DNA of 64,000 bases from Hyphomicrobium sp. CS1GBMeth3 (GTDB lineage Bacteria > Pseudomonadota > Alphaproteobacteria > Rhizobiales > Hyphomicrobiaceae). The stretch covers positions 1,178,001 through 1,242,000 of the forward strand of contig NZ_FPHO01000002.1 in assembly GCF_900117455.1 (NCBI RefSeq), written 5' to 3'. A program made the position numbers and the translations under genes. The notes below the pieces were generated by a model that had not been told where the DNA came from, searched no databases, and saw only the letters and a program-made list of their open reading frames with translations. This document shows, piece after piece, positions 41,951 to 62,091 of the stretch; within the stretch, counting starts at the first letter, position 1, and each line of letters starts with the position of its first letter.

Positions 41951-42025
41951 GGGCGGTTAGCTCAGCGGTAGAGCACACGCTTCACACGCGTGGGGTCACT
42001 GGTTCAATCCCAGTACCGCCCACCA
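41951..42025 (+). tRNA. tRNA-Val (CAC)
   Basis: A 75-base cloverleaf with encoded CCA. The acceptor stem GGGCGGT pairs with ACCGCCC; the D arm contains AGCTCAGCGGTAGAGC; the anticodon stem CACGC/GCGTG encloses loop TTCACAC, anticodon CAC at 41983-41985; the T arm has GGTTCAATC. It reads GUG. Its 3' end is the left repeat of the genomic island. Confidence 0.96.
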
Positions 42026-42028
42026 TGA
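42012..42028 (+). repeat. Left attachment repeat (tRNA-Val 3' end)
   Basis: AGTACCGCCCACCATGA, overlapping the last 14 bases of the tRNA gene and 3 bases beyond. It is identical to 62075-62091. Confidence 0.75.
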
Positions 42029-42081
42029 CCTTCGTTCATTTATAAATAGTTGCGCAACTCCATAGGTTAGATGCGATTTTG

Positions 42082-42104
42082 GGACTAACATTTGGCCTAA
42101 CATT
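42082..42104 (+). repeat. Left internal CTAACATT repeat pair
   Basis: Two CTAACATT octamers (42085-42092 and 42097-42104) 12 bp apart, inside the island end, 53 bases from the core repeat. The 23-bp segment differs at one base from that at 61980-62002. It may be an integrase arm-type binding site. Confidence 0.65.
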
Positions 42105-42159
42105 TTTAATTCGTTTACGGAATATATTGGTTCCCTATCTTTCAAGCCCTTAGCGAGCG

Positions 42160-42380
42160 AAGCTAAATCATTTTGTTTCGAGACTTGTCTCGCTGGCCTC
42201 CGTCGGGACATCAACGAACGGCTCGACGGCGTCAGCGCAAGACCAAGGTCAACAGCAGATGCCAAAGATGAGACCCGGAGCGATGGGTCAGGGAATGATG
42301 GACATTGGGGTAGGCCCGGCATGATGACGGGTTACGGCCCTGTGATCGAGGGACGGCTTGTGGCCCAGAGGGCTTGCTGA
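42160..42380 (+). pseudogene. Degraded Met/Gln-rich periplasmic protein (Spy/CpxP/ZraP-like)
   Basis: The frame from about 42160 reads KLNHFVSRLVSLASVG, then a signal-peptide-like ASAQ, then QQQMPKMRPGAMGQGMMDIGVGP. After a one-base frameshift near 42318 it continues GMMTGYGPVIEGRLVAQRAC and stops at 42380. Met-rich repeats followed by IEGRL are typical of Spy/CpxP-type metal-stress proteins. The start codon is lost (AAG in its place) and the C-terminal half is gone. The reading is inferential because homology was judged by eye. Confidence 0.5.
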
Positions 42381-42403
42381 TTCCTCTGATTACATAAGGT
42401 GGC

Positions 42404-43756
42404 CTAACGGGCCGCAGGCAAGTGGATCGATGCCTTAAGCCCGCCAAGAGAAGACTGAGCGAGGTTGATCGTTCCGCCATAAAGCGTAACCAGATCGCGG
42501 GCGATGCTAAGCCCAAGCCCCGATCCAGCGCTCTGAGTGTCCCAGCGTTCTCCGACGTTGAACACGACCTCGTGAGCCTCGGGCGGCAGTCCCGGACCGT
42601 CGTCTGAGATGGAAATGTCGATCAAACTACCCGCCACTGCACCTGCGGCGACGCGCACGCGCGACTTCGCGTGCTTGCCGGCGTTGTCGATCAGATTTCC
42701 TAGAATTTCCTGGAGATCTTGCACCTCGCAAGCAACGTGGAGCGAATCCGACACGTCCACCTCGAACTGCAGTCCCCTATGTGCGTAGATGCGTGACAGG
42801 GCCGCCACGACATCGGAGGCGACACGGCCGACATCGGCGGCCGCGCCGGGCGATAGGCGGCTTGCGACCACACGCGCACGCGTCGTCTGGTAGTCGATTT
42901 GCGTCTGCATCTTTCGGCACTGATCCAGGATCGTGCAAGCGCTTGTGTCAAGTCCCTGCTGCTGCAAGCGGTAGGCCTCGTCGGTGAGAATGGCGAGCGG
43001 GGTCTTTAGGCCGTGCGCAATATTCCCCGCCTGCGTCCGTGCCCTCTGGATGAGTTCGGTCACCGAGGAAAGCATCGCGTTGAGGTTGTCGACAAGAGGC
43101 TGCACTTCGGATGGGAAGCTTCCGGGCATGCGCTTTAATTTTCCGGAGCGCACGTCATAGAGAGAGGTATTGAGCTGACCGAGCGGTCTCATCGCGTAAA
43201 GGATCAACAAGGCAGCGGCGACCACCATGGACAGTCCGAGGCCCGTCAGCGACCAGGACAGCGCATTATTGAAACTAGCCACTACGTCATCGAGGTGACG
43301 CTTGTCTGTCCCGATTATGAACTGGACGGGTGGTTTGCCCGGGTCCTTCCATTCGAGGCTCTCAGCTACGAGCAGTTCCCCAGTCGGACCTGCGATACGA
43401 TGGGTGTGGATACCGACGTCCGAGCGCTCATCGGGAGGGGTCTTGAGGGGGGCTGCCTTCATGGAGGGGGAACGCGCGAGCACGTTGCCCTGCTGCTGGA
43501 TCTCCCAGTAGAAACCTGAGTTCTCGACATCGTAGCGCGGATCGCTCAGGTCGGCGCTCAACACGGCACGGCCGTTTTCGACATGCGCCAGCCGCTGCAG
43601 CTCGGCGATATGAACAAACAGCTCGTCGTAGAACTGCTGCGTCACATGTACTCGGAAGACATTGGAGAGGATCAGCCACGCGAGAACCATGCCAAACGCG
43701 ATCCACGCGGTGGCGGCAACGATGAGCCGGTTTCGGAGGCTGGCAGGTTCTTTCAT
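42404..43756 (-). CDS. Sensor histidine kinase
   Basis: A 450-residue membrane sensor kinase. Helices at about 12-32 and 168-190 enclose a periplasmic sensor domain; a HAMP-like linker follows. The phosphoacceptor is in AGNIAHGLKTPLAIL, and the ATPase has NLIDNAGKHAK, DDGPGLP and GSGLGLSIARDL. The general layout resembles PhoQ-type kinases. It starts 3 bases after the response regulator stop, so the two form an operon, and it is divergent from the efflux genes it probably controls. A truncated homologue lies at 56224-56608. Confidence 0.92.
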   Translation of the reverse strand: MKEPASLRNRLIVAATAWIAFGMVLAWLILSNVFRVHVTQQFYDELFVHIAELQRLAHVENGRAVLSADLSDPRYDVENSGFYWEIQQQGNVLARSPSMKAAPLKTPPDERSDVGIHTHRIAGPTGELLVAESLEWKDPGKPPVQFIIGTDKRHLDDVVASFNNALSWSLTGLGLSMVVAAALLILYAMRPLGQLNTSLYDVRSGKLKRMPGSFPSEVQPLVDNLNAMLSSVTELIQRARTQAGNIAHGLKTPLAILTDEAYRLQQQGLDTSACTILDQCRKMQTQIDYQTTRARVVASRLSPGAAADVGRVASDVVAALSRIYAHRGLQFEVDVSDSLHVACEVQDLQEILGNLIDNAGKHAKSRVRVAAGAVAGSLIDISISDDGPGLPPEAHEVVFNVGERWDTQSAGSGLGLSIARDLVTLYGGTINLAQSSLGGLKASIHLPAAR

Positions 43757-43759
43757 TGC

Positions 43760-44413
43760 CTAGTCCATCCGATAGCCCAGACCACGGATCGTCTTGATGA
43801 CGTCGGCGCCGAATTTTCGGCGGAGACGGCTGACGTAGACTTCGATGGTGTTCGACTCTCGGGTACCTTCCAGGCTGTAGAGATGCTCGGTGAGCTCGGC
43901 CTGAGAGACGATCCGGCCGATGCGATGCATGAAGTAGTTCAGCATGCGCAGCTCCTTGGCCGTGAGTTCAATCGGCTGGCCGTCGAGCATGGCTTTGCCG
44001 GCGGTCGCATCGAGCGTAATCCCTTTGTGAGTAAGCGTAGGGCTTGCGAGGCCGGCGGAGCGCCGTATGAGCGCGTTGAGTCGCGCAACCACCTCGGGGA
44101 TGTGGAAGGGCTTGGTGATGTAGTCGTCGGCACCTGCATTGAGCCCGTCGACCTTCTCTGCCCAGGAACCGCGCGCCGTCAGGATGAGGACCGGCATTTT
44201 GAAGCTCCCGGCGCGCCATTTGCGCAGCGCGTCAAGCCCGCTCATTTGCGGCAATCCGAGATCGAGCACAACGGCGTCGTACTGTTCCTCAGTTCCCATG
44301 ACGTAGCCATCGGCGCCGTTGTCGGCCCGCTCGACAGTAAAGCCCGCAGCGTCAAGTCCTTCGGATAGGCGATTGGCGATTTCGGGGTCATCTTCGATGA
44401 GCAGAACGCGAAT
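43760..44413 (-). CDS. OmpR/PhoB-family response regulator with apparent AUU start
   Basis: A 217-residue regulator: receiver domain (RVLLIEDDPEIANRL, phospho-Asp in VVLDLGLPQMSG, Thr in LILTARG, Lys in YITKPFH) and a winged-helix DNA-binding domain (ELTAKELRMLNYF ... SNTIEVYVSRLRRKFG). The first ATG (44299) would delete the first third of the receiver, including the acidic pocket. No ATG, GTG or TTG lies between it and the in-frame TAA at 44428-44426. ATT at 44413 is 7 bases after AAAGGAG and gives a full receiver, so AUU initiation is inferred. Confidence 0.85.
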   Translation of the reverse strand: MRVLLIEDDPEIANRLSEGLDAAGFTVERADNGADGYVMGTEEQYDAVVLDLGLPQMSGLDALRKWRAGSFKMPVLILTARGSWAEKVDGLNAGADDYITKPFHIPEVVARLNALIRRSAGLASPTLTHKGITLDATAGKAMLDGQPIELTAKELRMLNYFMHRIGRIVSQAELTEHLYSLEGTRESNTIEVYVSRLRRKFGADVIKTIRGLGYRMD

Positions 44414-44474
44414 TGGCGAGCTCCTTTAGCGATCCTTCCTGCGAGAGTTGATATCACACGCTCCTGAAACGGCG

Positions 44475-44495
44475 CTTAAAAGATCAACGTTTAAG
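44475..44495. promoter_or_regulatory. Inverted repeat CTTAAA-N9-TTTAAG
   Basis: A perfect 6-bp inverted repeat in the divergent region between the response regulator and the efflux operon. It may be an operator or part of a promoter; CTTAAA half-sites resemble those of PmrA-type regulators, but the half-site orientation differs. Confidence 0.35.
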
Positions 44496-44512
44496 GAAGA
44501 TCGCAGCTCCGG

Positions 44513-44528: not shown

Positions 44529-44581
44529 CTTTGAGTCGCACATCCCCGGTCTGAAGTTGTCGGTCGGATCGGGAGTTTTGA

Positions 44582-45640
44582 ATGCGCAGAGCATGGATCT
44601 TGGCAGCGGCAGTCTCGCTCCCTGCCGCGGTGGGCGCCACCTCGCACGTGTGGGCGCGCGATCTTGCGCTCTCGCCAACCCAAATCGAGCGCATGGCAAT
44701 CAAGATCGAGCCCGCGGTTCCGACGGCAGAGCAGATCATCGCGCTCATGCCTGGAACGGTCGTACCGGCGCTCAACGCCCGGATTGTCGCCGCCGCTCCG
44801 TTCGGGGGGACGGTCACCCAGATACACGTCCTTCCTGGACAACGCATAGCCAAGGGGCAGGCCCTCGCGACAATCTCGAGCCGTGAACTGCTGGAGGCGG
44901 CGTCAAACCTGGCTCAGGCAGAAGCCGAGCTTCAGGCTGCCGAAGCCGTCGCTCGCCGTCGGCGGGACCTTGCCAAGAAGAACATCCAGAGCCCCACAAT
45001 GGCCGAAGAGGCCGAGGCGCAGGTTGGCAAGATCCAGGCCGTCATCGAGCAGCATCGACGCACGCTGGTTCTCGGCGGGATCAGCAGCACAGATGTGGGC
45101 AACTATACGATCAACGCACCCGAGGCAGGACGCGTCGTCGAGGCGAGCGTTTTGCCCGGCGACAAGATCGAGACCATGGCCCCCGCCGTAACTATCGATA
45201 CGAACGATGAACTCTGGATCGAGGCGCAACTCCCGGCGCACTTGGTCAGCCGGATTACGCCGGGCGATCGCATCAAGGTGACGGACGGCCCCGAGGGCAA
45301 AGTCGTGTCGGTGGGCGGCTCTCTCGACAAGCTAACGCGCTCCGCCAAGCTGATCGTCAGCGTCCCCCTCGATAGCGGGCTTTTGCCGGGCCAGATGGTG
45401 ACGCTCAGTATCATCCAGAAGGCCGTGACAGGCGCGCGCTCGGTGCCCGCGAGTGCGGTTTCTCGTATCAACGCGGTCGAAGGCGTGTTCGTGCGCAACG
45501 AGACCGGCTTCACGCTCGTTCCGGTCGAGGTCGCAGGGCGCTCGCCCGCGGCGGCCACGGTAGTCGGCCACTTTCCCGAGGGCGCTTTGGTCGCAGCGAG
45601 CGGACTGCCGCAGCTAGAGCAGATGCTGGGGGCGGAATAG
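44582..45640 (+). CDS. Efflux RND periplasmic adaptor subunit (CusB/CzcB-like)
   Basis: A 352-residue membrane-fusion protein linking an RND pump to the outer membrane. Signal peptide residues 1-25 (ending HVWARD); lipoyl-like half GGTVTQIHVLPGQRIAKGQALATISS; helical hairpin rich in Ala/Glu (about 105-155); second lipoyl half NYTINAPEAGRVVEASVLPGDKI; beta-barrel to the end. GGGAG precedes the ATG by 7 bases. It is 3 bases from the pump gene. No CusF- or heavy-metal-binding extension is present. Confidence 0.92.
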   Translation: MRRAWILAAAVSLPAAVGATSHVWARDLALSPTQIERMAIKIEPAVPTAEQIIALMPGTVVPALNARIVAAAPFGGTVTQIHVLPGQRIAKGQALATISSRELLEAASNLAQAEAELQAAEAVARRRRDLAKKNIQSPTMAEEAEAQVGKIQAVIEQHRRTLVLGGISSTDVGNYTINAPEAGRVVEASVLPGDKIETMAPAVTIDTNDELWIEAQLPAHLVSRITPGDRIKVTDGPEGKVVSVGGSLDKLTRSAKLIVSVPLDSGLLPGQMVTLSIIQKAVTGARSVPASAVSRINAVEGVFVRNETGFTLVPVEVAGRSPAAATVVGHFPEGALVAASGLPQLEQMLGAE

Positions 45641-45643: not shown

Positions 45644-48600
45644 ATGCTTGACCGCATCATCAGTTTTTCGCTGACGCAACGCGTCTTCACGCTGCTGCTA
45701 GCCGGGGCCGCTGCTGCGGCCGGCGCGTGGGCCTTTCGCTCCATTCCGATCGACGCCTTTCCCAACATCTCACCGGTTCAGGTGAAGATGATCCTGAAGG
45801 CGCCCGGCATGACGCCGGAGGAGGTCGAGACACGCGTCATAACCCCCATCGAAATGGAGTTGCTTGGCATACCAAACCAAACAATCCTGCGTTCGGCCGC
45901 CAAGTACGCCATCGCCGACATCACACTCGACTTCGAGGATGGCACCGACATCTATTGGGCGCGCCAGCAGGTCGCCGAGCGCCTCAATGGGGTGCGGGAC
46001 CAGTTGCCAGCCAACATTTCGGGTGGCCTCGCACCGGTGTCGACGCCGCTCTCCGATGTCTTCATGTTCACCATCGACGGGGGCGATCTTTCTCTGGAGG
46101 AGCGGCGCAGTCTGCTCGACTGGACCATCCGCCCGGCGTTGCGCACCATCCCTGGCGTTGCTGACGTGAATGCGCTCGGCGGCGTGGTCCGCACGTTCGA
46201 GGTCATTCCGGACGCAAAGGCCCTCGCAGGTGCCCGCCTCGGCGTCGAAGACATCTTGAAGGCCATCGACGAGGCCAACCGCAATGACGGCGCGGGGCGG
46301 CTGAGCGAGGGAGAAAAGGCGCTCGTCGTGCGTACCGCCGGTGCCATCCAAAAGCCGCAGGATCTGGAACAGATCGTTCTCAAAACAGAGGGCGAGCAGG
46401 TCCTGCGTCTCGGCGACGTTGCGAGCGTCCGGATCGGAAGCCTCACCCGCTATGGCGCCGTCACCATGGACGGCCAAGGCGAGGCTGTACAGGGGCTGGT
46501 GCTTTCTTTACGGGGTGCCGATGCCAGCGCGATCGTGACCGCCGTGCGCGCACGCCTCGAGGGGCTCAAGTCGAGCTTGCCCGAGGGCGTCAGGATCAAC
46601 GCCTTCTACGACCGCTCGGACCTGATCGAAAAGGCCGTCGGCACGGTGAGCAAGGCGCTGATCGAGGCGACCGCGCTCGTTGTGGTTCTTCTGCTTCTCT
46701 TTCTCGGCAACCTGCGGGCTGCCTCCGTCGTCGCGCTGACGCTGCCGTTCGCTGCGCTCGTTACCTTCGTTATGATGAAGGTTTTCGGCATGTCGGCGAA
46801 CCTCATGTCGCTCGGGGGACTGGCCATCGCAATCGGGCTTATCGTGGATGCCGCGGTCGTGGTCGTCGAGAACACGGTCGAACGGCTCCAGCACCCGGGA
46901 ACCAACGACGTCCCCCTCTTACACAACGTCTATCGCGCGGCCAGCGAGGTGGCGGTGCCTGTGGCGTCGGGCATTCTGATCATCTGCCTCGTGTTCCTGC
47001 CGCTGCTGTCGCTCCAGGGCCTTGAGGGCAAGTTGTTCGCGCCGGTCGCTCTCACCATAATTTTCGCGCTCGGCGGCTCGCTCGTTCTTTCGCTCACGCT
47101 CATTCCCGTGTTGTCCTCATATCTCCTAGGCGGTGGCAGCCACGGGGAGCCGCTGCTGATGCGCCTTCTCACGCGCGGCTACAAGGCCCTCCTCAAGGCC
47201 TGCCTCGCCTTTCCGCCGGTGGCGTATCTGGTGGCCGCTGCCGGCCTCGTCGCGGTCGTCTTCGCCTATGGCGCCGTTGGCAAATCGTTCATGCCCACCA
47301 TGGACGAAGGCTCCGTGATCATGCAGATCACTAAGCTTCCCTCCATTAATCTCAAGGCCAGCATCGAGGGCGATCTTCGCATCCAACAGCTCTTGAAGGA
47401 GAAGGTGCCTGAGGTCGAGCGCATCGTCGCCCGGGTGGGATCGGACGAACTGGGCCTCGACCCTATGGGTCTAAACGAGACTGACACATTCCTCGTCTTG
47501 AAGCCCAAAGAGCAATGGCGCGTGCGGAGCAAAGAATGGCTGGTCGATGAGTTGCGCCAAGCCATGGCCGACATGCCTGGTGTCGAGTTCGCCTTCACCC
47601 AGCCGATAGAAATGCGGACGGCCGAGATGCTGACCGGCGCACGGGGCGATCTCGCCATCAAGATCTTCGGCCCCGATCTTCCGACACTATCCAACCTCGC
47701 CGGCAAAATCCAAAGCGCGCTTGAGACGGTGGCCGGCGCGTCCGAAGTCTCGACTGTCGCCAACGACAATGTCGAATACCTCCAGATCGATATCGATCGC
47801 CTTGCCGCGGGCCGAACGAGCCTCTCTGTCACGCGTGTCGAGGACGAGCTCCGGGCGATGCTCGAAGGGGCGCCTGCCGGTCTCGTCTCGGAGCCGGGCC
47901 GGCGCACGGAGATCGTCGTGCGCGGCGCGCAGGATGTTCGCGACGATCCGCAAGCGTTCACGGCGACCCAGATCGCGGCGGGCGACGGCGGCGTGGTGCG
48001 TGCGGGCGACATCGCAAAACTCGAGCGTGTAAGTGGACCGGTCAAGATCGAGCGCGAGAATGCCTCCCGCTTCGCCATCGTGCAGGCGTATGTGACGGGC
48101 CGGGACCTCGTGGGCTTCGTCGAGGACGCTCAGCGTGTCGTCGCTGAGAAAGTGGAGCTGCCCCCGGGCTATCGGCTCGTCTGGGGCGGGCAGTTCGAGA
48201 ATCAGCGCCGGGCCGCGACGCGGCTGTCGATCGTCGTTCCCGTCGCCCTCCTTCTGATCTTCGGCGTTCTGTTCGCGACGCTACGTTCGATCCGGCAATC
48301 TCTGCTCATTCTTGCCAACGTGCCTTTCGCGTTAGTGGGCGGCGTCCTCTCGCTCTGGATCTCTGGAGAATATCTGTCGGTTCCGGCCTCTGTCGGCTTC
48401 ATCGCGTTGCTCGGCATCGCGGTGCTGAACGGACTCGTTCTCGTCACCCACTTCAACCAGTTGGCCGCGAGCGGCATGCCCATCGGGCAAGTCGTGTTTG
48501 ATGGTGCCGTCCGGCGTCTGCGTCCGGTGATGATGACCGCGAGCATTGCCGCGTTCGGTCTTGTGCCGCTCCTGTTTGCAACAGGACCCGGATCGGAGAT

Positions 48601-48805
48601 CCAGCGCCCGCTTGCGATCGTCGTCATCGGCGGCCTCGTCACTTCGACCGCCCTCACCCTACTGCTCCTGCCCATCCTCTTCCGTCGCTTCGGTCTGAGT
48701 GCCGACAGGGACAGCAACGAAATCCGGAACCTCCAATGGACCAATCCCTTTGCAAGCTCACGCTCGTCTATCCAACAAGCGCTGCAGCCGACCTCATCGA
48801 GCTGA
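45644..48805 (+). CDS. Heavy-metal-efflux-type RND permease (CusA/CzcA family)
   Basis: A 1053-residue inner-membrane pump with twelve helices and two periplasmic porter regions. The helix-4 signature reads AIAIGLIVDAAVVVVEN, closest to the AxGxxxD form of Cu/Ag-type HME pumps rather than the DFGxxxDG form of Zn/Co/Cd pumps. Other blocks: PNISPVQVKM near the start and GDVASVRIGSLTRYGAV. Metal specificity remains open. It forms an operon with the adaptor and the DUF3240 gene, with which its 3' end overlaps by 70 bp. No outer-membrane factor is encoded in the island. Confidence 0.93.
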   Translation: MLDRIISFSLTQRVFTLLLAGAAAAAGAWAFRSIPIDAFPNISPVQVKMILKAPGMTPEEVETRVITPIEMELLGIPNQTILRSAAKYAIADITLDFEDGTDIYWARQQVAERLNGVRDQLPANISGGLAPVSTPLSDVFMFTIDGGDLSLEERRSLLDWTIRPALRTIPGVADVNALGGVVRTFEVIPDAKALAGARLGVEDILKAIDEANRNDGAGRLSEGEKALVVRTAGAIQKPQDLEQIVLKTEGEQVLRLGDVASVRIGSLTRYGAVTMDGQGEAVQGLVLSLRGADASAIVTAVRARLEGLKSSLPEGVRINAFYDRSDLIEKAVGTVSKALIEATALVVVLLLLFLGNLRAASVVALTLPFAALVTFVMMKVFGMSANLMSLGGLAIAIGLIVDAAVVVVENTVERLQHPGTNDVPLLHNVYRAASEVAVPVASGILIICLVFLPLLSLQGLEGKLFAPVALTIIFALGGSLVLSLTLIPVLSSYLLGGGSHGEPLLMRLLTRGYKALLKACLAFPPVAYLVAAAGLVAVVFAYGAVGKSFMPTMDEGSVIMQITKLPSINLKASIEGDLRIQQLLKEKVPEVERIVARVGSDELGLDPMGLNETDTFLVLKPKEQWRVRSKEWLVDELRQAMADMPGVEFAFTQPIEMRTAEMLTGARGDLAIKIFGPDLPTLSNLAGKIQSALETVAGASEVSTVANDNVEYLQIDIDRLAAGRTSLSVTRVEDELRAMLEGAPAGLVSEPGRRTEIVVRGAQDVRDDPQAFTATQIAAGDGGVVRAGDIAKLERVSGPVKIERENASRFAIVQAYVTGRDLVGFVEDAQRVVAEKVELPPGYRLVWGGQFENQRRAATRLSIVVPVALLLIFGVLFATLRSIRQSLLILANVPFALVGGVLSLWISGEYLSVPASVGFIALLGIAVLNGLVLVTHFNQLAASGMPIGQVVFDGAVRRLRPVMMTASIAAFGLVPLLFATGPGSEIQRPLAIVVIGGLVTSTALTLLLLPILFRRFGLSADRDSNEIRNLQWTNPFASSRSSIQQALQPTSSS

Positions 48806-49089
48806 TCATGTCGTCAAATCCGGCGATCGGCGGTTTCACGACCTTCAACGCGGAAGGCCACGGGTTTGATTTCTCGCATGCCAGCATCAGCGAGCGTGTT
48901 CGCGGTCGCGTCGAGCGAGGCGTGCTTGTAGCCGTGATGCCGCGAGGGCACGCCTCCCTCCTGCTCGAAACCATCCGCAAGGCTCTGCCGGTGCCTCACA
49001 TGGCCTACTGGCTCGAGCCTGTCCTAGAGGTTGGCCGCCTAGTCGAGAGCAGCGCCCAGCAGGCAGAACCGGCTGGAGCTGCGACGTGA
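48736..49089 (+). CDS. DUF3240 family protein
   Basis: A 117-residue PII/CutA-like small protein typically encoded next to HME-RND pumps: CKLTLVYPTSAAADLIELIM, GFTTFNAEGHG, RVRGRVERGVLVAVMPRG and AYWLEPVLEVGRL. Its role is unknown, possibly regulation of the pump by metal. The conserved family N-terminus requires the ATG at 48736, which lies inside the pump gene, giving an unusually long 70-bp overlap in a different frame. Its stop overlaps the next small gene (GTGA). Confidence 0.88.
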   Translation: MDQSLCKLTLVYPTSAAADLIELIMSSNPAIGGFTTFNAEGHGFDFSHASISERVRGRVERGVLVAVMPRGHASLLLETIRKALPVPHMAYWLEPVLEVGRLVESSAQQAEPAGAAT

Positions 49090-49572: not shown

Positions 49573-49827
49573 ATGCGTAGGATCATTGTCAGATCGATTG
49601 CTGCAGCAGCGTGTGCGGCAGCCCTGGTGACGACCGCAATTGCACAGGAAGGCTTGGTCGCCACTGCGTGCAAAGACGACATCTCGAAATTCTGCGCTGG
49701 CAAGGAGCATGGTCGAGGTGACGTTCGCGGCTGCCTCGAGTCCAACAAGGATAAGCTCTCGGCTGCGTGCAAGACTGCCCTCGATAATACCGGCCCTGGG
49801 CGGGGCATGGGCGCCGGCCGAAAGTAA
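49573..49827 (+). CDS. Small secreted Cys-rich-repeat protein
   Basis: An 84-residue protein with a signal peptide (RRIIVRSIAAAACAAALVTTAIAQ) and a mature part with the spacing ACKDDISKFCAG ... GCLESNKDKLSAACKTAL. This matches a cysteine-rich repeat of the GLG1 type (PF00839-like), common in small bacterial periplasmic proteins of unknown function. Disulphides or metal binding are likely. AGGAGA precedes the ATG at 49573; the frame opens at 49510. Confidence 0.8.
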   Translation: MRRIIVRSIAAAACAAALVTTAIAQEGLVATACKDDISKFCAGKEHGRGDVRGCLESNKDKLSAACKTALDNTGPGRGMGAGRK

Positions 49828-49894
49828 GCTTCGCACCTAGCTCGTGAAGCCGTCGCGGGCCTTCCTGCGGCGAGACAGGAGAAAGCTTTACCCT

Positions 49895-50839: not shown

Positions 50840-51015
50840 AGACGGCGGGGAGCACAGCCCACCTACTCAACGGCCGGTAGCCCCTTTGCCCGGGACCAGC
50901 GATTGGCTCGCGGCGAAGCGAACCATTGACCGGCGTCAAGGCGATGCACTTGGGATTGTGCTGCAGGAAGAAAAGCACGCTGAAGGCTACGATGAGTCCC
51001 AAGGAGCGGAGTCTG

Positions 51016-54210: not shown

Positions 54211-55672
54211 GGACCAAGACAAAGGATCGCGAGCGCATTCTGCGCGGCATTTGGGCCTGCCTGGCGCCGTCGTCGCGGTGCTCTTCGTTGTGGCAGCGCT
54301 TTTGCCACTTATCGCCGCGCTCGGCTCCGGTATAGAGCCCGCGAACACTTCCACCGAGCTGGCGACCGCGCTTGGGCTGACTGCTGCAGCTCTCCTATTC
54401 CTACAGTTCTGGAGCTCAGGCCGTTACGAGAGCATCTCCGGCCGCGTCGGCATCGACCGAACGATGGGATTTCACCGCCTTGCAGCGTGTGCGTTGCTCG
54501 CGTTTGCGCTGCTTCACCCCGTGACCTACCTTGCGAATAGCCTGTTCGCCGATCCTGTCGCGACCTGGAGCCGGCTCACGGCGATGATGGCAAGTCCGCG
54601 TCTGCGCAGCGGCTCGCTTGCGCTCGCGGGATTGATTATCATTGTTTCCGTGGCCGCGGTGCGCACGCGCCCCTTCGTCCGCTACGAAGTCTGGCGTATT
54701 GGCCATGGACCGCTAGCGGTCTTCGTGGCGGGTCTCGTCCTCCATCATGCCACGACCACCGGGACCTACAGTGCCGAGACGCCGTTGCGCCATATCTTGA
54801 TCATATTCGCTGGCGGCGCCCTTGCGGCAATCCTCTCGGTGTATGTGGTGAGACCCTGGCGTATGTGGCGCGAGGACTGGCACGTCGGGCAGGTGCGGCG
54901 GATTGGTACCCGCGCCATCGAGATGATTTTGCACGGCCCCGCGACGACGCGGCTCCGCTTTCGCGCGGGCCAGTTCATTTGGATGACGCTCGCGCCCCAT
55001 CGTCCGCCCTTCCACGATCATCCATTTTCGATCGCTTCGGCTCCGGCTGAACTTCCCCGCCTACGTCTTGTGATCAACGAAGTTGGCGATTGCACCCGAA
55101 CTTTTGAACGCATCGCCCCGGGCACCCGCGTCGCCATTGACGGCCCGCATGGAAGCTTCATGGTGCCGCCGGACAAAGCGCCGGTTATCTTGATCTCCGG
55201 CGGCGCGGGCATCGCTCCGCTTCTCGGTATGATTGAAGAAGCCGCAGCAATTGGAGATCGAAGGCCCTACCGCCTTCTCTTTGCGGCACGGGAGCAAGGC
55301 GGTTTGATTTACCTCGACCGACTGCGCGAGCTGCAGTTGAAGGTTGATCTCTCTATTCATTGCCTAGTCGATGCAGGTCAACGCGAAGACCAGATTGGGA
55401 AGGGGCCGCTACAGCCGAACCATGTCCGTGATTTTGTCGACGGCGTCGATCCGCAGGGAGCGGTTGCACTCGTTTGTGGCCCGCCGCGGATGATGGAGGT
55501 GGCAACCGACGCCCTCTTGGGAGCTGGCGTTCCAGAGAACTCGGTCCTCTACGAGAGGTTTGACTTCGGCGCTGGCAAGGGGCGGCTTGACAAGGCGCGC
55601 CGAAACCAGGAGTTGCTCGTATTTCTCGTTATCGTCGTGGCGATGACAGCCTTTAGTCTGCGCCAACTCTAG
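54188..55672 (+). CDS. Ferric-reductase-like flavocytochrome (NAD(P)H oxidoreductase)
   Basis: A 494-residue protein. The N-terminal half has about six helices of the ferric reductase-like domain with haem-ligand His pairs (GFHRLAACALLAFALLHP and IGHGPLAVFVAGLVLHH). The C-terminal half is a ferredoxin reductase module: FAD site HDHPFSIASAP, NAD site SGGAGIAPLLGM and CGPPRMMEVA. A final hydrophobic helix ends the protein. It would pass electrons from NAD(P)H across the membrane. Its start overlaps the P1B-5 ATPase by 23 bp, with AGGAGG before it, so the two are co-translated; iron chemistry is a likely common theme. Confidence 0.88.
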   Translation: MNTLSRHRDQDKGSRAHSARHLGLPGAVVAVLFVVAALLPLIAALGSGIEPANTSTELATALGLTAAALLFLQFWSSGRYESISGRVGIDRTMGFHRLAACALLAFALLHPVTYLANSLFADPVATWSRLTAMMASPRLRSGSLALAGLIIIVSVAAVRTRPFVRYEVWRIGHGPLAVFVAGLVLHHATTTGTYSAETPLRHILIIFAGGALAAILSVYVVRPWRMWREDWHVGQVRRIGTRAIEMILHGPATTRLRFRAGQFIWMTLAPHRPPFHDHPFSIASAPAELPRLRLVINEVGDCTRTFERIAPGTRVAIDGPHGSFMVPPDKAPVILISGGAGIAPLLGMIEEAAAIGDRRPYRLLFAAREQGGLIYLDRLRELQLKVDLSIHCLVDAGQREDQIGKGPLQPNHVRDFVDGVDPQGAVALVCGPPRMMEVATDALLGAGVPENSVLYERFDFGAGKGRLDKARRNQELLVFLVIVVAMTAFSLRQL

Positions 55673-55944
55673 GAAACCGTCTGCTCGACCAAGTACTTGA
55701 CGATTGTCGTGCGAGCAACGGGATCGTCGACATTATGGTCTTCCAGAAACTTCGAGAGAGCGGCTGCGCGCTCGTTGCTTGTATCTCCCTTGAGATTTCG
55801 TGCGAGCCTGCCCACGCATCCGTGGCACTTCGCGCAGTACATTTTGAAGGTCGCCTCGGTCGCGAATCCGACCGAAATGTCAACCGACGTGAGCGTCAGC
55901 GCGGCGAGGACAATCGGAAAGATATGCTCACATCGGATTTTCAT
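55669..55944 (-). CDS. Small periplasmic c-type cytochrome
   Basis: A 91-residue protein with a signal peptide (about residues 1-28) and one haem-binding motif CAKCHGC. The rest (RNLKGDTSNERAAALSKFLEDHNVDDPVARTTIVKYL) resembles small monohaem cytochromes. No methionine follows the haem motif, so the second axial ligand would be the single downstream His or none. Its stop overlaps the end of the convergent flavocytochrome gene by 4 bp. Confidence 0.78.
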   Translation of the reverse strand: MKIRCEHIFPIVLAALTLTSVDISVGFATEATFKMYCAKCHGCVGRLARNLKGDTSNERAAALSKFLEDHNVDDPVARTTIVKYLVEQTVS

Positions 55945-56235
55945 GCTTTTGCCGCATCTTGGTCGCGCAGCTGGCTCGCTGTCCGACCATCTGCGAACGG
56001 TTCACCGGCCACCGCCCATCGTTTCGAGGGCTGACTTGCGCGCCGCTGTCATCTTCTCCTCGTTCCGCAAGCCGGCCGAACCCCTCGACCGGCTCGACCC
56101 AATAGACAAGGTTCGACATCGATGTATTGATGCGGATCACTTCCAGCAGCGGTACCAGACGCGCGCGGGAGACAATCACCGAAAACACGCCGCGCATGAC
56201 GCGGCCACGCGCGCGTTCGCCGTTTGCATGTCGAC
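55928..56235 (-). pseudogene. 5'-truncated DUF3240 gene
   Basis: Reading leftward from about 56235, the frame gives GERARGRVMRGVFSVIVSR, then LVPLLEVIR and LVYWVEPVEGFGRLAE, clearly homologous to the C-terminal half of the intact DUF3240 protein at 48736 (RVRGRVERGVLVAV and AYWLEPVLEVGRL). The N-terminal 45 residues are missing. A short product could start at ATG 56197. Its 3' end overlaps the cytochrome c start by 17 bp. Confidence 0.7.
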
Positions 56236-56608
56236 CGCGGGCTGAAAATCGAGAACAGCGTCCCGCCGGACATTATGGTCGCGTGCCAACCTCGAGATCT
56301 CAACGAGATTCTGGCGTACCTTGTGGGCAACGCCTGCAAACACGCAAAATCGAAGGTGCTGCGGGTCGAGCAGGAGACAAGCCGCAACTTTATTACTATC
56401 GTTGTTGAGGACGACGGGCCAAGTTTGCCCTCAGAAGCTGGGAGTCGTGCTCAACATCGGTGAGCAACGTGGAACGCAAGCGCGCGGCTCCAGTCTTGGC
56501 CTGGCGATCGTACGCGATCTTATGCAACTCTATGGCGGATCGATCCGGATTGACCGATCCGATCTCGGCGGACTCAAAGTGATCCTCGAAGTTCCGGTCT
56601 TCTCATGA
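56224..56608 (+). pseudogene. Truncated, frameshifted histidine kinase remnant
   Basis: Only the ATPase end of a kinase remains: DRGLKIENSVPPDIMVACQ, EILAYLVGNACKHAKSKV and VEDDGPSLPSEAG in one frame, then after a frameshift near 56440 GVVLNIGEQRG, SSLGLAIVRDLMQLYGGSI and DLGGLKVILEVPV in another. It aligns throughout with the C-terminal third of the intact kinase at 42404-43756. The sensor, membrane and phosphoacceptor parts are absent. Confidence 0.8.
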
Positions 56609-56734
56609 CTGGTCGCCAGCGCAGCTTAGGCCGGGTCTCATCATAAGCGCGAGGGGGCTGACCCCGGTCAGACCTCGATAGCGCTAGCGGTCCTGCCTCG
56701 TTCAATTGGCTGTCTTGCCGCAATCTTGCCCGCA

Positions 56735-56750
56735 TTCAGGTTGTTGTCAG
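56735..56750 (+). promoter_or_regulatory. TTCAG/GTCAG direct repeat, 11-bp period
   Basis: TTCAG (56735-56739) and GTCAG (56746-56750) lie 48 bases before the response regulator ATG, compatible with autoregulation by an OmpR/PhoB-type regulator. Confidence 0.4.
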
Positions 56751-56797
56751 CTCCGGCAGATAGCGGCAGTCCTATGCATTTCCGGGCCGACACAGAC

Positions 56798-57451
56798 ATG
56801 AGGATCCTTCTGATCGAGGACGAACCGCTACTCGGGGAGGCAGTGGCCACTCACCTGAAAAAAATTCACGCTGTCGATTGGCTGCAGTCTTTGGACGAGG
56901 CGTCGGGGGCCGTGCAAACCGTGGCATATGATCTGCTTCTCTTGGACGTCAATCTTCCCGATGGTCACGGACTGGACCTGCTGCGCTCGATGCGCGGATC
57001 CGGACAATACGTTCCGGTGATCGTCATTACCGCGCGCGACCAGATCCGCGACCGCATCGAAGGTCTTAACGCCGGGGCCGATGACTATGTCCTGAAGCCG
57101 TTCGACCTCGATGAGCTGACTGCGCGCATCAACTCCGTGCAGCGCCGCGTGGCAGCCATACCAAGCCCACGGATGACCATCGGCGCCAGCGAGATCGATC
57201 AAACGGCGCGGAAGGTCTGGCGCGATGGTGAGGAAATTCATCTCACCGCGCGCGAATGGGCCCTGCTCGAATGCTTCGCCCGACGGCTGGGCACTATCGT
57301 GTCGAAGGCAAAGCTCGAGGAGGTCCTCTACAATTTCGGCTCCGAGATCGAGAGCAATGCGGTCGAGGTCTACATCAGCCGGCTGCGCAAGAAGCTGGGC
57401 AGCGAGACGATCCGCACCCTACGCGGTCTCGGCTACCGCATGGACCGTTAG
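56798..57451 (+). CDS. OmpR/PhoB-family response regulator
   Basis: A 217-residue regulator. Receiver: RILLIEDEPLLGEAV, phospho-Asp in LLLLDVNLPDGHG, ITARD, and Lys in YVLKPFD. The winged-helix domain has HLTAREWALLECFARR and SNAVEVYISRLRKKLG ending GLGYRMDR. PmrA/QseB-like in length and layout. ATG 56798 is the conserved start; the frame opens at 56726. It is 2 bases before its kinase gene and probably controls the lipid A modification genes downstream. Confidence 0.92.
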   Translation: MRILLIEDEPLLGEAVATHLKKIHAVDWLQSLDEASGAVQTVAYDLLLLDVNLPDGHGLDLLRSMRGSGQYVPVIVITARDQIRDRIEGLNAGADDYVLKPFDLDELTARINSVQRRVAAIPSPRMTIGASEIDQTARKVWRDGEEIHLTAREWALLECFARRLGTIVSKAKLEEVLYNFGSEIESNAVEVYISRLRKKLGSETIRTLRGLGYRMDR

Positions 57452-57453
57452 CG

Positions 57454-58806
57454 ATGGCGACCTGGACGATCAAGCAACGCCTCATCAGGTCATTGATTAC
57501 GCTGATCGGCTTATTCTGGATCTTCGGCGTCGCAGCTGCGGGTCTTGTGGTTAGACACGAGATCACCGAAGTTTTCGACAGCGCTCTGCGAGAAACGGCT
57601 GGAGAGATTCTTCCCGTCGCTCTTCAAGAGCTCCACCGCAAGATTGCGCATCAAAGCGGCTCTCCTCTCCTGACGACCCTAGCGAGTTCTTTGACGGCAA
57701 GTCGTGGCCACGTGCATTTCCTATTGAGGGACCGCAGCGGCGCTGTCCTGCTCGCGTCAAATGGCGGGCCCAAGGACCCGCAAGCGATCCCGCTCAGGAA
57801 GGGCTTCTACAGCCACGGCGAGTTCCGATATTACGCGCGCTTCCTACGCGACGAAAGCATATGGATCGCGGTCGCCCAGGATCTGCAAGAGCGGCAAGAG
57901 GCTGCCATCGGCGTGTGGCTTGGGCTTGCTTCTCCGCTGCTTGCGCTGTTGCCAATTGCCGCCTTGGCCGTGTGGCGGACGGTCGGCCGCGCGACCGAAT
58001 CCATCTCGCGCGTGGCGAACGAGCTTGAAGCACGCGGCCGCAATGATCTCGAGCCGATCGATGCCGCAGGCCTTCCGGCCGAGATTTCTCCCGTGATCAA
58101 AGCCGTCAATACGCTCATGATGCGCCTCAAGGCCGCGCTCGATTCCGAGCGTGCGTTCGCGGCCAACGCCGCGCACGAGCTGCGTAATCCGATTGCGGCT
58201 CTGCGAGTGCAGATCCAGCTGCTCGCTGGCAACCTCCGAGCCACGGGGGAGAGCTCGCGGGTCGAGAGCATCGAAGCGCAGCTCGGTCGCCTGAGCCGTC
58301 GCGTGGAGAAGTTGCTTCAGATGTCGCGCGCTGAAGCCGGTCTTGGCCACTCACGGGAGCGCACGGATCTTCTCGCTATCGCCGCGCTGATTGTCGATGA
58401 CTATCGCCAGCAGTCCGGTGTGGGTAGGCGGCTGAGGTTCCAGATAGAAGATGACGAGAGTTTCTGGGTCGGAATGGATCAGGACGCCCTCGCCATCGTG
58501 CTGCGCAATGTGATCGAGAACGCGATCCATCACGGAATCGATACAGAGCCGATCGAAGTCCGCGTCGGACGCGACCACACCCTCCGCGTCGTCAACGCCT
58601 GCGAAGCCGTCCCGCCACATATTTTGAGAGAGCTGACAAACCGATTCCGCCGCGCCGGCGCGCGACAGGGGGTTGGCAGCGGCCTTGGCCTTACGATCGT
58701 GGATATGATCATGCGCCAAGCTGGCGGATTGGTAGCGCTCGCTTCACCGGCCGAGGGACGGCCGGATGGCTTCCAGATTGTGCTTAAGTTTCCTAGTATG
58801 ATTTGA
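57454..58806 (+). CDS. Sensor histidine kinase (QseC/PmrB-like)
   Basis: A 450-residue membrane kinase. Two helices (about 12-34 and 152-172) flank a periplasmic domain; a HAMP segment follows. The phosphoacceptor His is in FAANAAHELRNPIAAL; ATP-binding boxes are NVIENAIHHG and GSGLGLTIVDMI; the D-box is poorly conserved (VVNACEAVPP). ATG 57454 follows the regulator stop directly; upstream frame lies inside the regulator gene. Confidence 0.92.
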   Translation: MATWTIKQRLIRSLITLIGLFWIFGVAAAGLVVRHEITEVFDSALRETAGEILPVALQELHRKIAHQSGSPLLTTLASSLTASRGHVHFLLRDRSGAVLLASNGGPKDPQAIPLRKGFYSHGEFRYYARFLRDESIWIAVAQDLQERQEAAIGVWLGLASPLLALLPIAALAVWRTVGRATESISRVANELEARGRNDLEPIDAAGLPAEISPVIKAVNTLMMRLKAALDSERAFAANAAHELRNPIAALRVQIQLLAGNLRATGESSRVESIEAQLGRLSRRVEKLLQMSRAEAGLGHSRERTDLLAIAALIVDDYRQQSGVGRRLRFQIEDDESFWVGMDQDALAIVLRNVIENAIHHGIDTEPIEVRVGRDHTLRVVNACEAVPPHILRELTNRFRRAGARQGVGSGLGLTIVDMIMRQAGGLVALASPAEGRPDGFQIVLKFPSMI

Positions 58807-58828
58807 GCCTTACGCGGCGCACGATCCC

Positions 58829-58846: not shown

Positions 58847-58900
58847 TTGAGGTTGGACATTCCCCGCCGAACGCACGTTCGATGCGATGGAGGGGGAGTC

Positions 58901-59626
58901 GTGTACGCGACCATCGTTCTTCCGGCCCATAATGAGGAGGACTGTATTGGTCCCCTCCTGCGGGAAATCATCTGTGCCAGCCGTGCCCTTCCGGTGCGGG
59001 AGATCATCGTGGTTGATGACGGCAGTATGGACCGGACGGCCGAACGCGCCATCGCCGCCTGTAGCGACAACGCGATGCTGCGCATCATTCGCCATGGTAG
59101 TCGCCACGGCCAAAGTCGTGCCCTGCTGACTGGCATCCGGGCCGCATCACACGACCTGATCGTCACACTCGATGCCGATGGGCAGAACGACCCTGCCGAT
59201 CTCGGCAAGCTCTTTGCTGCCTATGCGAGCCGGCAGGCGCAGACTACCCATCTGATCGTTGCCGGGCAGCGGCTCCGCAGGCGAGATTCTTTCGTACGGC
59301 GTGCCTCCTCTCGGATCGCAAACGGCATTCGCGCAGTCTTGCTGAACGACAACGTACGCGACACCGGATGCAGTTTGAAGCTGTTCCGGCGGCAGGATTT
59401 TCTTGAGCTTCCGTTCTTCGATCACGTCCATCGGTTCATTCCCGCGATGATGAAGGGCGCCGGAGTGGCGGTCGTTCTCGTAGACGTCAATCATCGGCCG
59501 CGTAAGGCCGGCCGATCCAAGTATGGAGTTTGGGACCGTCTATGGGTGGGCATTCACGATTTGATCGGCGTGCGCTGGCTTTTGAAGCGCCAGATCGGAA
59601 ATGTCAAACTGGAGGACGTGCTGTGA
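58901..59626 (+). CDS. Glycosyltransferase family 2 (polyprenyl-phosphate sugar synthase-like)
   Basis: A 241-residue inverting glycosyltransferase: IVLPAHNEEDCI, VVDDGSMDRT, the DxD motif in TLDADGQNDP and DTGCSLKLFRR. It resembles DPM1/ArnC-type enzymes that load a sugar on undecaprenyl phosphate. No C-terminal membrane helices are seen. GTG 58901 is preceded by GGAGGGGGA; the frame opens earlier at a TTG at 58847. Its stop overlaps the next gene (GTGA). Confidence 0.9.
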   Translation: MYATIVLPAHNEEDCIGPLLREIICASRALPVREIIVVDDGSMDRTAERAIAACSDNAMLRIIRHGSRHGQSRALLTGIRAASHDLIVTLDADGQNDPADLGKLFAAYASRQAQTTHLIVAGQRLRRRDSFVRRASSRIANGIRAVLLNDNVRDTGCSLKLFRRQDFLELPFFDHVHRFIPAMMKGAGVAVVLVDVNHRPRKAGRSKYGVWDRLWVGIHDLIGVRWLLKRQIGNVKLEDVL

Positions 59627-59928
59627 CCCATTCTGCAGCGGCTTCCGCCTCGGACATTCTATGGCTTGGTGTCGGATTCGTCGGACAGACGCTGTTCTTC
59701 ATGCGATTCTTTGTGCAATGGATGGCGTCCGAGAGGGCACGGCGATCCGTCATTCCGCAAGCATTCTGGTATTTCAGCTTGGCGGGCGGTCTCGTCTTAC
59801 TCGCCTACGCCATACGGCGCGCGGATCCAGTGTTTATTATTGGACAGGCGACCGGCCTCCTCATCTACGGTCGCAATCTCTATTTCATCGCCGGGCGGTC
59901 TCAATCCGATGGAAAGACCGCGGGGTGA
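59623..59928 (+). CDS. Lipid-A-disaccharide synthase N-terminal-like (LAB_N) membrane protein
   Basis: A 101-residue protein with about three helices and the LAB_N pattern: GFVGQTLFFMRFFVQWMASERARRSVIPQAFWYFSLAGG and DPVFIIGQATGLLIYGRNLYFI. Such small proteins accompany GT2 and GT83 genes in lipid A modification clusters; the exact role is unclear, possibly lipid carrier handling. GTG 59623 overlaps the GT2 stop by 4 bp, with GGAGG before it. Confidence 0.9.
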   Translation: MTHSAAASASDILWLGVGFVGQTLFFMRFFVQWMASERARRSVIPQAFWYFSLAGGLVLLAYAIRRADPVFIIGQATGLLIYGRNLYFIAGRSQSDGKTAG

Positions 59929-61525
59929 GGGCTTGAACTCAGATCGCCGGAATTTGGATCGATTGGGCCTCGCCGGGCTTGCGGTTCTGGGTACGCTCGT
60001 TGTGATCGCCATCATGTTCCTGCCCGCGTTTCCCATCGACGAGACGCGCTATCTTACCGTTGCGTGGGAGATGAGACAGGCAGGTAACTGGAGCCTGCCC
60101 ACCCTCAATTTCGAGCCCTATTCGCACAAGCCACCTCTCCTGTTCTGGCTGATCAATGCTAGCTGGTCGGTATTCGGCTTGGCGGTCTGGCCGGCGCGCC
60201 TTGTCGGCGCCGCGGCGACCGGACTTGTGATTTTTTTCACACATCGCCTTGATCGGCTGCTGGCACCTGCACCAGCGCCTGGCCCTGCAGCAAGTGCCCT
60301 CATGCTCTTGGGACTTCCGCTATTCCTTGCGCTCGGTCTCTCGATCATGTTCGACATGCTGCTTACCGCGACGGTCTCTGGCGCGATGCTCGCGCTTTGG
60401 TTCGCGGGACGATCGGGGGGATGGAAAGCATTCGTGGCATATGGCGTTGCTGTTGGTCTCGGGCTGCTCGCGAAGGGGCCGGTAGTGTTGCTGTTCACCG
60501 TACCAGCGGCGGTACTTGCGCGATTGTGGGTCGATCCGCAGCAGCGAGCCGGTTGGCCTTTACGCATTGCTGCATCACTTGGGATCGGTGTGCTGCTCGG
60601 CTTGGTATGGGCACTCCGCGCCGCTTCCATCGGTGGACCGGAATTTGCCGAGATGCTATTTTGGCAACAGTCGGCAGGGCGCATCGCATCGTCTTTTGCC
60701 CATGCCCGCCCGTTCTGGTTCTATGTGCCGGTCGTCCTGTTGTTCTTCCTTCCACTGCTTGTTTGGCGACCGGCGTGGTTAGGCCTTCGCATGAGCTTTA
60801 AGATAGGCGGGAGCGCCCGCAATTTCCTGCTGAGTTGGATTGTCCCGGCGCTTCTGGGACTAAGCTTGATCAGCGGCAAACAGATTCACTACCTGCTGCC
60901 TCTATTGCCCGCCATAGCCTTACTGGTGTCGCTTGGTCTGAGGCGCGTTGCGCCAACCAACGCGGACCGTTTCACATGGCTGGCTCTCGGGACTGCGCTT
61001 CTCATGCTCCTCGCTGCGCTCGCGATGGATTGCGGAAGGTTCTTGCCAGCGGATAGTGGCTTCGCAAGCATCGCTGCACAACTCGATTTGCCTTTGGTGT
61101 TCCTCACCGGTGTTCTGGCAATCGGGGCGATTGCGATCTCCCGTGGCTCGACACACCGCATGCTTCTCGGGCTGGCAGCCGCAAATGTCATCGTGCTGGC
61201 GAGTTTGACGATCCAATCCCGCGTCATCGTTGCCAAGTCGTTCGATTTGCAGCCGCTGGCGGACGTCGTGCTCACGCTGCGCGATCGGCCAATTGCTGTC
61301 GCTCAGAGAACGCGCGGCGAACTCGGCTTCCTTGCCCGTCTCGAGCGCTCTCTTGTGTATGTTCCTGAAGAGGACCTGCCCTCGTGGCTGTCACAGCATC
61401 CCGATGGCGTCGCCATCGTCCGGGAGCGAGCCGATCGAGCAAACGCGATGTTGACCAAAGGCACACTACTCTACCGCCAAGACTATCGCCTATCAGAAGT
61501 GATCCAGGTCATATCGGCTAGGTAG
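59909..61525 (+). CDS. ArnT-like glycosyltransferase (GT83)
   Basis: A 538-residue membrane transferase with about 12 helices. The first periplasmic loop has the ArnT/PMT motif FPIDETRYLTVAWEM and the block NFEPYSHKPPLLFWLI; GLLAKGPVVLL and SGKQIHYLLPLLPAIALL are typical of the family. It should move a sugar from undecaprenyl phosphate to lipid A on the periplasmic face. ATG 59909 overlaps the previous gene by 20 bp; TTG 59933 is an alternative. The protein ends in a short soluble C-terminal domain. Confidence 0.9.
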   Translation: MERPRGEGLNSDRRNLDRLGLAGLAVLGTLVVIAIMFLPAFPIDETRYLTVAWEMRQAGNWSLPTLNFEPYSHKPPLLFWLINASWSVFGLAVWPARLVGAAATGLVIFFTHRLDRLLAPAPAPGPAASALMLLGLPLFLALGLSIMFDMLLTATVSGAMLALWFAGRSGGWKAFVAYGVAVGLGLLAKGPVVLLFTVPAAVLARLWVDPQQRAGWPLRIAASLGIGVLLGLVWALRAASIGGPEFAEMLFWQQSAGRIASSFAHARPFWFYVPVVLLFFLPLLVWRPAWLGLRMSFKIGGSARNFLLSWIVPALLGLSLISGKQIHYLLPLLPAIALLVSLGLRRVAPTNADRFTWLALGTALLMLLAALAMDCGRFLPADSGFASIAAQLDLPLVFLTGVLAIGAIAISRGSTHRMLLGLAAANVIVLASLTIQSRVIVAKSFDLQPLADVVLTLRDRPIAVAQRTRGELGFLARLERSLVYVPEEDLPSWLSQHPDGVAIVRERADRANAMLTKGTLLYRQDYRLSEVIQVISAR

Positions 61526-62074
61526 ACGGACCACTTAGATCCTTTGGACGGTATCCGTCTCACACGAGACCGCAATTTGATTGGCACGCCTGTCGGTCGA
61601 CGTCCGCTCTCTAAGGCAGAAACGCCATGCCGTTGGTGTCAAACTCCGCCTTGCGATAGCGGTCCCGCTACTGCCGCCACGAGTTCGCGCCGTGCGCGGT
61701 AGTGTCCCCGGACGTGATGTAACTTTCTGAGAGCTGCGGATAGACGGCCTATTGGGCGCACACCAAGACCGACGAGCTTGACCCGCTCGTTCAAGGTCCG
61801 GCTTCGGTCTTCGAGACGATAGCTAACTTGTAAGTGAAACAACCCCGCTCACGGCCATCGCCGATTGTCGCCCTACCTGTACTTGTTTGGGCCGTAGATT
61901 TCCCCTCAGACGCCCACGTCCCGCCCACTCATTGGGCAGCGGTCCATACACACTAGCGGCGGTTTGACTAGCGGTCCGAGGACTAACATTTGGACTAACA
62001 TTGAGCCGTCATTGAACTTCGTTTCTGCTATAAACACTTGAAATGTAGCGTATATATTTCCTCCGCCGGGTGGG
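61526..62074. other. Gene-poor right end of the island
   Basis: About 550 bases without a convincing gene. A stretch near 61750-61830 can be read as a peptide (YWAHTKTDELDPLVQG) that may be a remnant of an unidentified gene. The segment also holds the right CTAACATT pair. Confidence 0.5.
61980..62002 (+). repeat. Right internal CTAACATT repeat pair
   Basis: CTAACATT at 61983-61990 and 61995-62002, 12 bp apart, same strand as the left pair at 42082-42104 and identical in 22 of 23 positions. It lies 72 bases inside the right core repeat. Confidence 0.65.
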
Positions 62075-62091
62075 AGTACCGCCCACCATGA
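62075..62091 (+). repeat. Right attachment repeat
   Basis: An exact 17-base copy of the tRNA-Val 3' end and adjoining bases (42012-42028). The upstream part of the tRNA is not repeated, as expected for the far end of an integrated element. Confidence 0.75.

Follow-up and report, generated by a model that had tools for sequence, protein, structure and literature searches.

A probable integrase-less genomic island with paired terminal repeats at tRNA-Val(CAC) in Hyphomicrobium sp. CS1GBMeth3

The tRNA-Val(CAC) gene of Hyphomicrobium sp. CS1GBMeth3 (positions 41951-42025, + strand, found with ARAGORN) borders a block of 20,080 bp, at 42012-62091, that we call the Val island. All coordinates are those of the window, the 64,000-nucleotide stretch of DNA that was analysed. 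Judged from gene families, the likely job of its cargo is metal efflux together with redox and outer-membrane adjustment. The tRNA gene, the presumed integration target, is left whole, and its 3′ end is directly repeated at the far boundary of the island: the 17-bp sequence AGTACCGCCCACCATGA, made up of 14 nt of the tRNA 3′ end (acceptor strand, CCA) and TGA, occurs in exact copies at 42012-42028 (left attachment (att) core) and 62075-62091 (right att core), both on the + strand, as a preliminary description of this DNA had reported. Allowing up to three mismatches, the window contains these two copies only (0.07 expected; none of 100 shuffles held two). In the whole 4.03-Mb genome, at up to two mismatches, both copies were recovered along with one two-mismatch site on the opposite strand; the same description had asked whether the 17-mer occurs by chance at many other sites, and the genome holds no third exact copy. 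A 17-bp repeat at a tRNA 3′ end is the usual footprint of a tyrosine recombinase. The cores are flanked as GGGTGGG-AGTACCG-CCCACC on the right and AATCCC-AGTACCG-CCCACC on the left, and identity between the two sides begins exactly at AGTACCG, as would be expected if a 7-bp exchange region AGTACCG lay between inverted core sites.

Just inside the cores, each end of the island carries a tandem pair of 12-bp iterons on the + strand, GGACTAACATTT/GGCCTAACATTT at 42082-42105 on the left and GGACTAACATTT/GGACTAACATTG at 61980-62003 on the right. Between core and pair there are 53 bp on the left and 71 bp on the right; the two pairs share the same orientation and differ at one position in 23 bp. The motif CTAACA occurs four times in the island on both strands combined, two per end, all within the iterons and none internally. 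In its own genome the iteron pair was found at the two island ends only, and it was absent from 384 other genomes of the class (23-mer, ≤3 mismatches), 102 of the family (21-mer, ≤3 mismatches) and 397 of the phylum (21-mer, ≤2 mismatches). These samples overlap, and reversed control patterns gave 3, 2 and 5 matches in the class, family and phylum samples, so that lone matches there mean little. Because the pair is confined to the two ends, one recombination system most likely made both, and the iterons themselves are most likely integrase arm-type sites. They lend independent support to the island ends, and the view of the preliminary description that an att-bounded, integrase-less island occupies tRNA-Val(CAC) is strengthened.

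Wider searches with these patterns yielded no second element. Searched for exact copies of the iteron pair, genome_contigs gave a single record, a Rickettsia stretch that on inspection by eye we took for an unrelated, chance occurrence, and no viral contig contained GACTAACATTTGGACTAACA. A looser double GGACTAACA pattern retrieved 25 records, 16 of them (by our own count) variants of one coding-looking sequence; PF00589 matched in one of the 25 stretches and a tRNA was present in none. The left-junction 26-mer (≤3 mismatches) was found in none of 396 other genomes of the order, a sample that included only two of the seven genus-mates.

No integrase was found among the 15 island open reading frames (ORFs) scanned with Pfam, and a comparison of the island with the integrases of its own genome gave a chance-like best phmmer value (E = 0.0084) and no profile match, which bears out the absence noted in the preliminary description. 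The Pfam scan of these 15 ORFs and of two small ORFs likewise revealed no relaxase, type IV secretion system or integrase family. A gap of 298 bp (42106-42403, no strand) separates the left iterons from the first gene, at the place where a control element in genome G034, described below, begins its integrase. No PF13356 integrase adjoining the left iterons was found in these 298 bp, nor any other recognisable gene, and the integrase slot is therefore empty. Elsewhere in the genome we located 12 places with the integrase family PF00589; within the 12 kb fetched around each, a tRNA was present at four (Phe, Leu, Tyr and Glu) and tRNA-Val at none. Among 29 tRNA-Val(CAC) loci of relatives, each up to 3.4 kb long, one (G031) had a PF13356-type integrase. 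This integrase, which has its own 12-bp tandem GGGGCACATTTT iterons (by eye), was rejected as a match to the present site; it sits 5′ of its tRNA-Val(CAC).

We take the domain DUF4102 to be the present PF13356, with 'P4-type' as a presumed label for it. In most tyrosine recombinases of mobile elements, an arm-binding domain recognises arm sites close to where recombination occurs, and in genomic-island integrases that domain is DUF4102 (PMC8138268). From 135 places in 61 genomes of the order we took 30 loci with PF13356 integrases, one of them the tRNA-Tyr integrase of the genome studied here. We scored tandem repeats with a period of 11-13 bp in the 260 bp upstream, counting as a pair those with a match of at least 9/10. 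Such a pair preceded the integrase at 11 of the 30 loci, whereas control windows drawn from those loci had one in 9 of 119 cases (one-sided Fisher test, P = 0.0002); L167, L169 and L175, where strand or place is probably wrong, were not counted as matches. Four PF13356 elements (G034, G064, G080 and G073) could be followed over 60 kb, and two further contigs were too short. In two of the four, G034 and G064, a second tandem pair with the same motif and orientation lies far downstream. In G034 both pairs fall between copies of a 49-bp direct repeat that resembles part of a tRNA by eye, and the PF13356 match begins about 35 bp past the left pair. The Val island, too, has same-orientation tandem iterons near both ends, the arrangement seen in these two of the four control elements. 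Because similar iteron pairs precede many PF13356 integrases and sit at both ends of two of the four elements, we infer that the integrase that made the Val island was probably of the P4 type (PF13356).

Two other islands of the same genome, both of which look complete, provide comparisons at hand. The tRNA-Phe(GAA) island (C3:1795702-1814646) spans 18.9 kb, has its own integrase and is bounded by an 18-bp repeat of the tRNA end. It resembles the Val island in size, in this tRNA 3′-end repeat and in having a motif twice per end; it differs in retaining an integrase and in its motif, which is GTGGGAAA (four copies, two per end, one inverted) rather than GGACTAACA. The tRNA-Leu(GAG) island (C2, 22.9-77.4 kb) is a 54.5-kb integrase-bearing island with a 33-bp repeat, where a single TTTTGTCC lies close to the left end and a single copy of its complement close to the right. 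Apart from the missing integrase, the Val island shares the anatomy of these two islands. The other two tRNA-associated integrases gave less: no att repeat was found in about 27 kb beyond the tRNA of the tRNA-Tyr integrase, and for the tRNA-Glu integrase the fetched DNA contained only a 13-mer lying outside the tRNA 3′ end. In the tRNA-Leu island, an 18-bp piece of the upstream tRNA recurs just before the far repeat copy.

To the left of tRNA-Val lies a conserved neighbour, a tusA-like gene (41558-41806, + strand, PF01206), and matches to tusA and tRNA-Val(CAC) were adjacent in all seven genus relatives. One genome per species was compared, and the closest matches to the tusA-tRNA stretch, in four relatives, were at 72-75%. 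To the right of the tRNA, a conserved gene of 411-481 aa (Pfam had no match for the single copy scanned) was reached in six of the seven relatives and tex in four of those six; the contig of G004 ends too soon, the stretch of G005 ends just past the 411-481-aa gene, and in G002 other genes follow. G003, with 0.4 kb (422 bp) between tRNA-Val and the 411-481-aa gene, has a nearly empty site. The corresponding spacing in G001 is about 7 kb and in G007 8 kb; G006 has 13 kb, G002 16 kb, including a run of N, and G005 17 kb. None of the six informative relatives has the Val-island block at this site, and thus the conserved synteny that the preliminary description had raised as a possible objection was not encountered. 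The only island-like proteins at the site were an ATPase at 28-29% and a response regulator at 34%, both in G002. No second copy of the relatives' 19-nt tRNA end (≤4 mismatches, tRNA strand) was detected in any of nine fetched stretches, a weaker test in G002, where 4 of the 19 query letters are N. The tRNA-Val site is an integration hotspot.

Beyond the right core, and outside the island, Csu-type pilus genes (SCPU pilin, usher; a chaperone-usher operon) start at 62127-64000 on the − strand and continue at L057:1-4889. The preliminary description had treated this region as the ancestral neighbour that an empty site would join directly to the tRNA, a view that the comparison does not uphold; among the genus relatives compared, Csu genes occupy this site in none. 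Beyond the Csu genes lie a conserved 95-aa gene and tex, separated by a pyridoxal-phosphate decarboxylase gene. In G001 and G007 the 411-481-aa gene has a homologue of the 95-aa gene next to it; G014, from another genus, has a decarboxylase homologue near tRNA-Val. A homologue of the Csu SCPU pilin is present in two of eight genus genomes, its own included; the other is G001, whose copy and tRNA-Val are on separate contigs. Since the conserved 95-aa gene and tex lie past the Csu genes, the sequence from that point rightwards appears ancestral, with Csu as an apparent further insertion; the operon is accessory and was probably acquired separately.

Taken together, we favour, with a probability of roughly 0.8, the reading that 42012-62091 is a tyrosine-integrase genomic island at the 3′ end of tRNA-Val(CAC), most likely P4-type, that is now non-autonomous and resembles a cis-mobilizable element (CIME). 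A tyrosine integrase would have inserted the island at the tRNA 3′ end, and would most likely have belonged to the P4 or genomic-island class, in which the N terminus carries an arm-binding domain (PF13356). Recombination within the shared core, probably in the 7-bp AGTACCG, would have placed a core at both ends and preserved the tRNA, and the paired iterons near the ends would most likely be the arm-type sites of this integrase. The integrase gene, expected right after the left iterons, would then have been lost, unless the element always depended on one supplied in trans; the remainder would be CIME-like and non-autonomous, an island with genes for metal efflux and the envelope. On this account the empty site would read as the tRNA core followed directly by TGATTTTCCC.

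Several observations weigh against this account or parts of it. No strong upstream iteron pair was present at 19 of the 30 PF13356 loci, including the tRNA-Tyr integrase of the same genome, and G080 and G073 had no second pair within 60 kb; the iteron layout is common but not universal among PF13356 integrase elements. The integrase of the tRNA-Phe island matches PF00589 only, yet that island has paired end motifs, and end motifs alone are therefore no proof of the PF13356 class. The preliminary description had suggested looking for a matching integrase in the rest of the genome; integrases are indeed there, at the 12 PF00589 places, but none was recognised as cognate. No empty site was seen in the same species, one genome per species having been compared. 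Finally, the 13 nt that follow the tRNA in G005 (L053) and G006 (L049:1265-1280) each agree, by eye, at 11 of 13 positions with TGACCTTCGTTCA, which follows the left core. A simple story of a single integration does not explain this likeness: should the left side of the island be element DNA, the sequences in G005 and G006 may be ends of related elements; should it be native, the simple model would have to be extended by a further step.

The island might instead be a working satellite and not a decayed element, with both att sites complete and moved by the integrase of another element that uses a tRNA-Val site. This would fit the core and iterons kept at both ends with a single difference, and the open reading frames of the large cargo genes; integrase-less islands beside others with integration modules are also on record (PMC5704250, PMC3146451). 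We nevertheless consider it unlikely, as no tRNA-Val was seen in the 12 kb fetched around any of the 12 PF00589 places, the genome has no further copy of the iteron pair, the collections searched revealed no other element bearing these iterons, and an internal kinase remnant (see below) indicates some decay of the cargo. A stronger form would make the island a pure cargo satellite that never needed its own integrase, with att and arm sites under selection and GGACTAACATTT iterons recognised by P4-type integrases. We give this form little credence; if true, metal-resistance genes would spread as parasites of island integrases.

A different doubt concerns what binds the iterons. They could be sites for an excisionase (recombination directionality factor) and not integrase arm sites: according to PMC7498355, the targets of such factors are direct repeats with a spacing of one helix turn. 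Same-orientation pairs at both ends, and pairs in front of PF13356 integrases, fit arm sites without excluding an excisionase, and we regard the excisionase assignment as doubtful. Either way, the iterons belong to one recombination system.

It is also conceivable, though we think it improbable, that the repeats stem from different events, with successive islands at one tRNA having built a composite block that never moved as one 20-kb unit. The hotspot with its differing contents in relatives, a cargo that looks module-built with parts at two places in G007, and the further insertion of Csu beyond the right core would all suit such a history. Against it, both ends carry the same iteron pair, which turned up nowhere else and ties them to one recombination system, and no third same-strand copy of the core occurs at up to two mismatches. 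Old islands can scatter tRNA-derived fragments, but we see a negligible probability that the copy at 62075 is an unrelated piece of this sort or a product of chance, with the 20 kb being ordinary chromosome: two independent repeat pairs are limited to the same two places, and none of the six informative genus-mates shows the block in conserved synteny.

Among known kinds of element, the Val island fits best with integrase-less, att-bounded islands of CIME-like form and adds a new member to a kind already known. As defined in PMC5704250, a CIME is an element whose integration and transfer genes have been lost or are lacking and whose attL and attR are retained. The Val island is alike in anatomy, with both att sites kept and no integration or conjugation genes among the scanned ORFs. 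CIMEs are described there as decayed integrative and conjugative elements (ICEs) or integrative and mobilizable elements (IMEs) in tandem with another element, whereas for the Val island neither an ancestor nor a partner sharing the core is visible; no partner element sharing core or iterons was found in its own genome. With no conjugation gene among the scanned ORFs, a phage-like or satellite ancestor is equally as open as an ICE or IME.

The ssrA islands of Dehalococcoides also sit without an integrase at an RNA-gene hotspot, and their authors consider them possible cis-mobilizable elements; in contrast to the tRNA-Val target and tyrosine-recombinase-like ends seen here, a serine recombinase and tandem arrangement are proposed for them (PMC3146451). 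The pandemic Aux3 element of Vibrio cholerae is likewise reduced with att sites retained, has a P4-like integrase system and is reported to show low-level recombination independent of the Aux3 integrase; it differs in keeping a truncated integrase gene and in lying between gcvT and thrS (PMC7721734). A limited search of the literature on alphaproteobacterial tRNA-Val islands recognised no description of the Val island, though one may exist. Specialists will find the case tidy but unsurprising. Integrase-less islands can be recognised, and the class of their integrase suggested, by paired iterons lying immediately inside the repeats, and such marks could bound islands that integrase-based tools would miss.

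The cargo begins on the − strand with a PhoQ-like sensor histidine kinase (42404-43756; Pfam and NCBIfam-type profiles) and an OmpR-type response regulator (43760-44425; family match). On the + strand follow a periplasmic adaptor of the resistance-nodulation-division (RND) class, CusB/CzcB type (44582-45640; TIGR01730 above cut-off), a CusA/CzcA heavy-metal RND pump (45644-48805; TIGR00914 above cut-off), a DUF3240 protein (48736-49089; PF11582), a small Cys-rich repeat protein (49573-49827; PF00839), a calcineurin-like phosphoesterase (49844-50839; PF00149), a cytochrome b561-type membrane protein (50926-51753; PF01292), a heavy-metal P-type ATPase with a C-terminal hemerythrin domain (51889-54210; PF00122, PF00702 and PF01814, TIGR01525 above cut-off) and a ferric reductase-like flavoprotein (54143-55672; PF01794, PF08022 and PF00175). 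A small candidate c-type cytochrome, a weak match with PF13442 below cut-off, lies on the − strand at 55669-55944. The remainder is again on the + strand: a histidine kinase remnant (about 56221-56608), a second OmpR-type response regulator (56726-57451; Pfam), a QseC/PmrB-like sensor kinase whose true start may be later than annotated (57256-58806; family match), a family-2 glycosyltransferase (58847-59626; PF00535) and an ArnT-like glycosyltransferase (PMT_2) (59666-61525; NCBIfam match below its cut-off).

The preliminary description had also placed gene remnants at both edges. Eight of the 12 edge frames were scanned (three of six left, five of six right) and none matched Pfam even at E = 5, so the edge remnants are unconfirmed in those frames; the real kinase remnant is internal. 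For a Met-rich Spy-type gene seen by eye at the left edge, the scanned frames likewise gave no Pfam match, and we make no claim for it.

The metal-efflux modules appear at different places within one genus. In G007, homologues of the cargo form a compact set at 979.9-991.6 kb, and a second segment, with ATPase and reductase and 86% identical to that of the island over 3.9 kb, lies at C1 1054.4-1058.3 kb. The second segment lies 5-9 kb from tRNA-Gln(CTG), to which an integrase fragment adjoins (region to 1063.6 kb); no repeat of the tRNA-Gln(CTG) end was found near it. Evidently the cargo modules move, but not only via tRNA-Val. A recent plasmid source finds no support in the plasmid collection searched, in which no record spans 80% of the 4.8-kb cargo segment; the nearest plasmid relatives of the ATPase are from Methylocella and Methylocapsa, with 91-92% of the protein covered at 66-69% identity. 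The kinase remnant resembles, at 68% nucleotide and 53% amino-acid identity, an intact kinase beside cytochrome b561 in G007, and the island thus holds one whole and one broken kinase of this sort. Matches to the ATPase-hemerythrin fusion that extend to residue 768 or beyond were present in at least 20 of 397 genomes of the order, its own included, with two candidates scored per genome.

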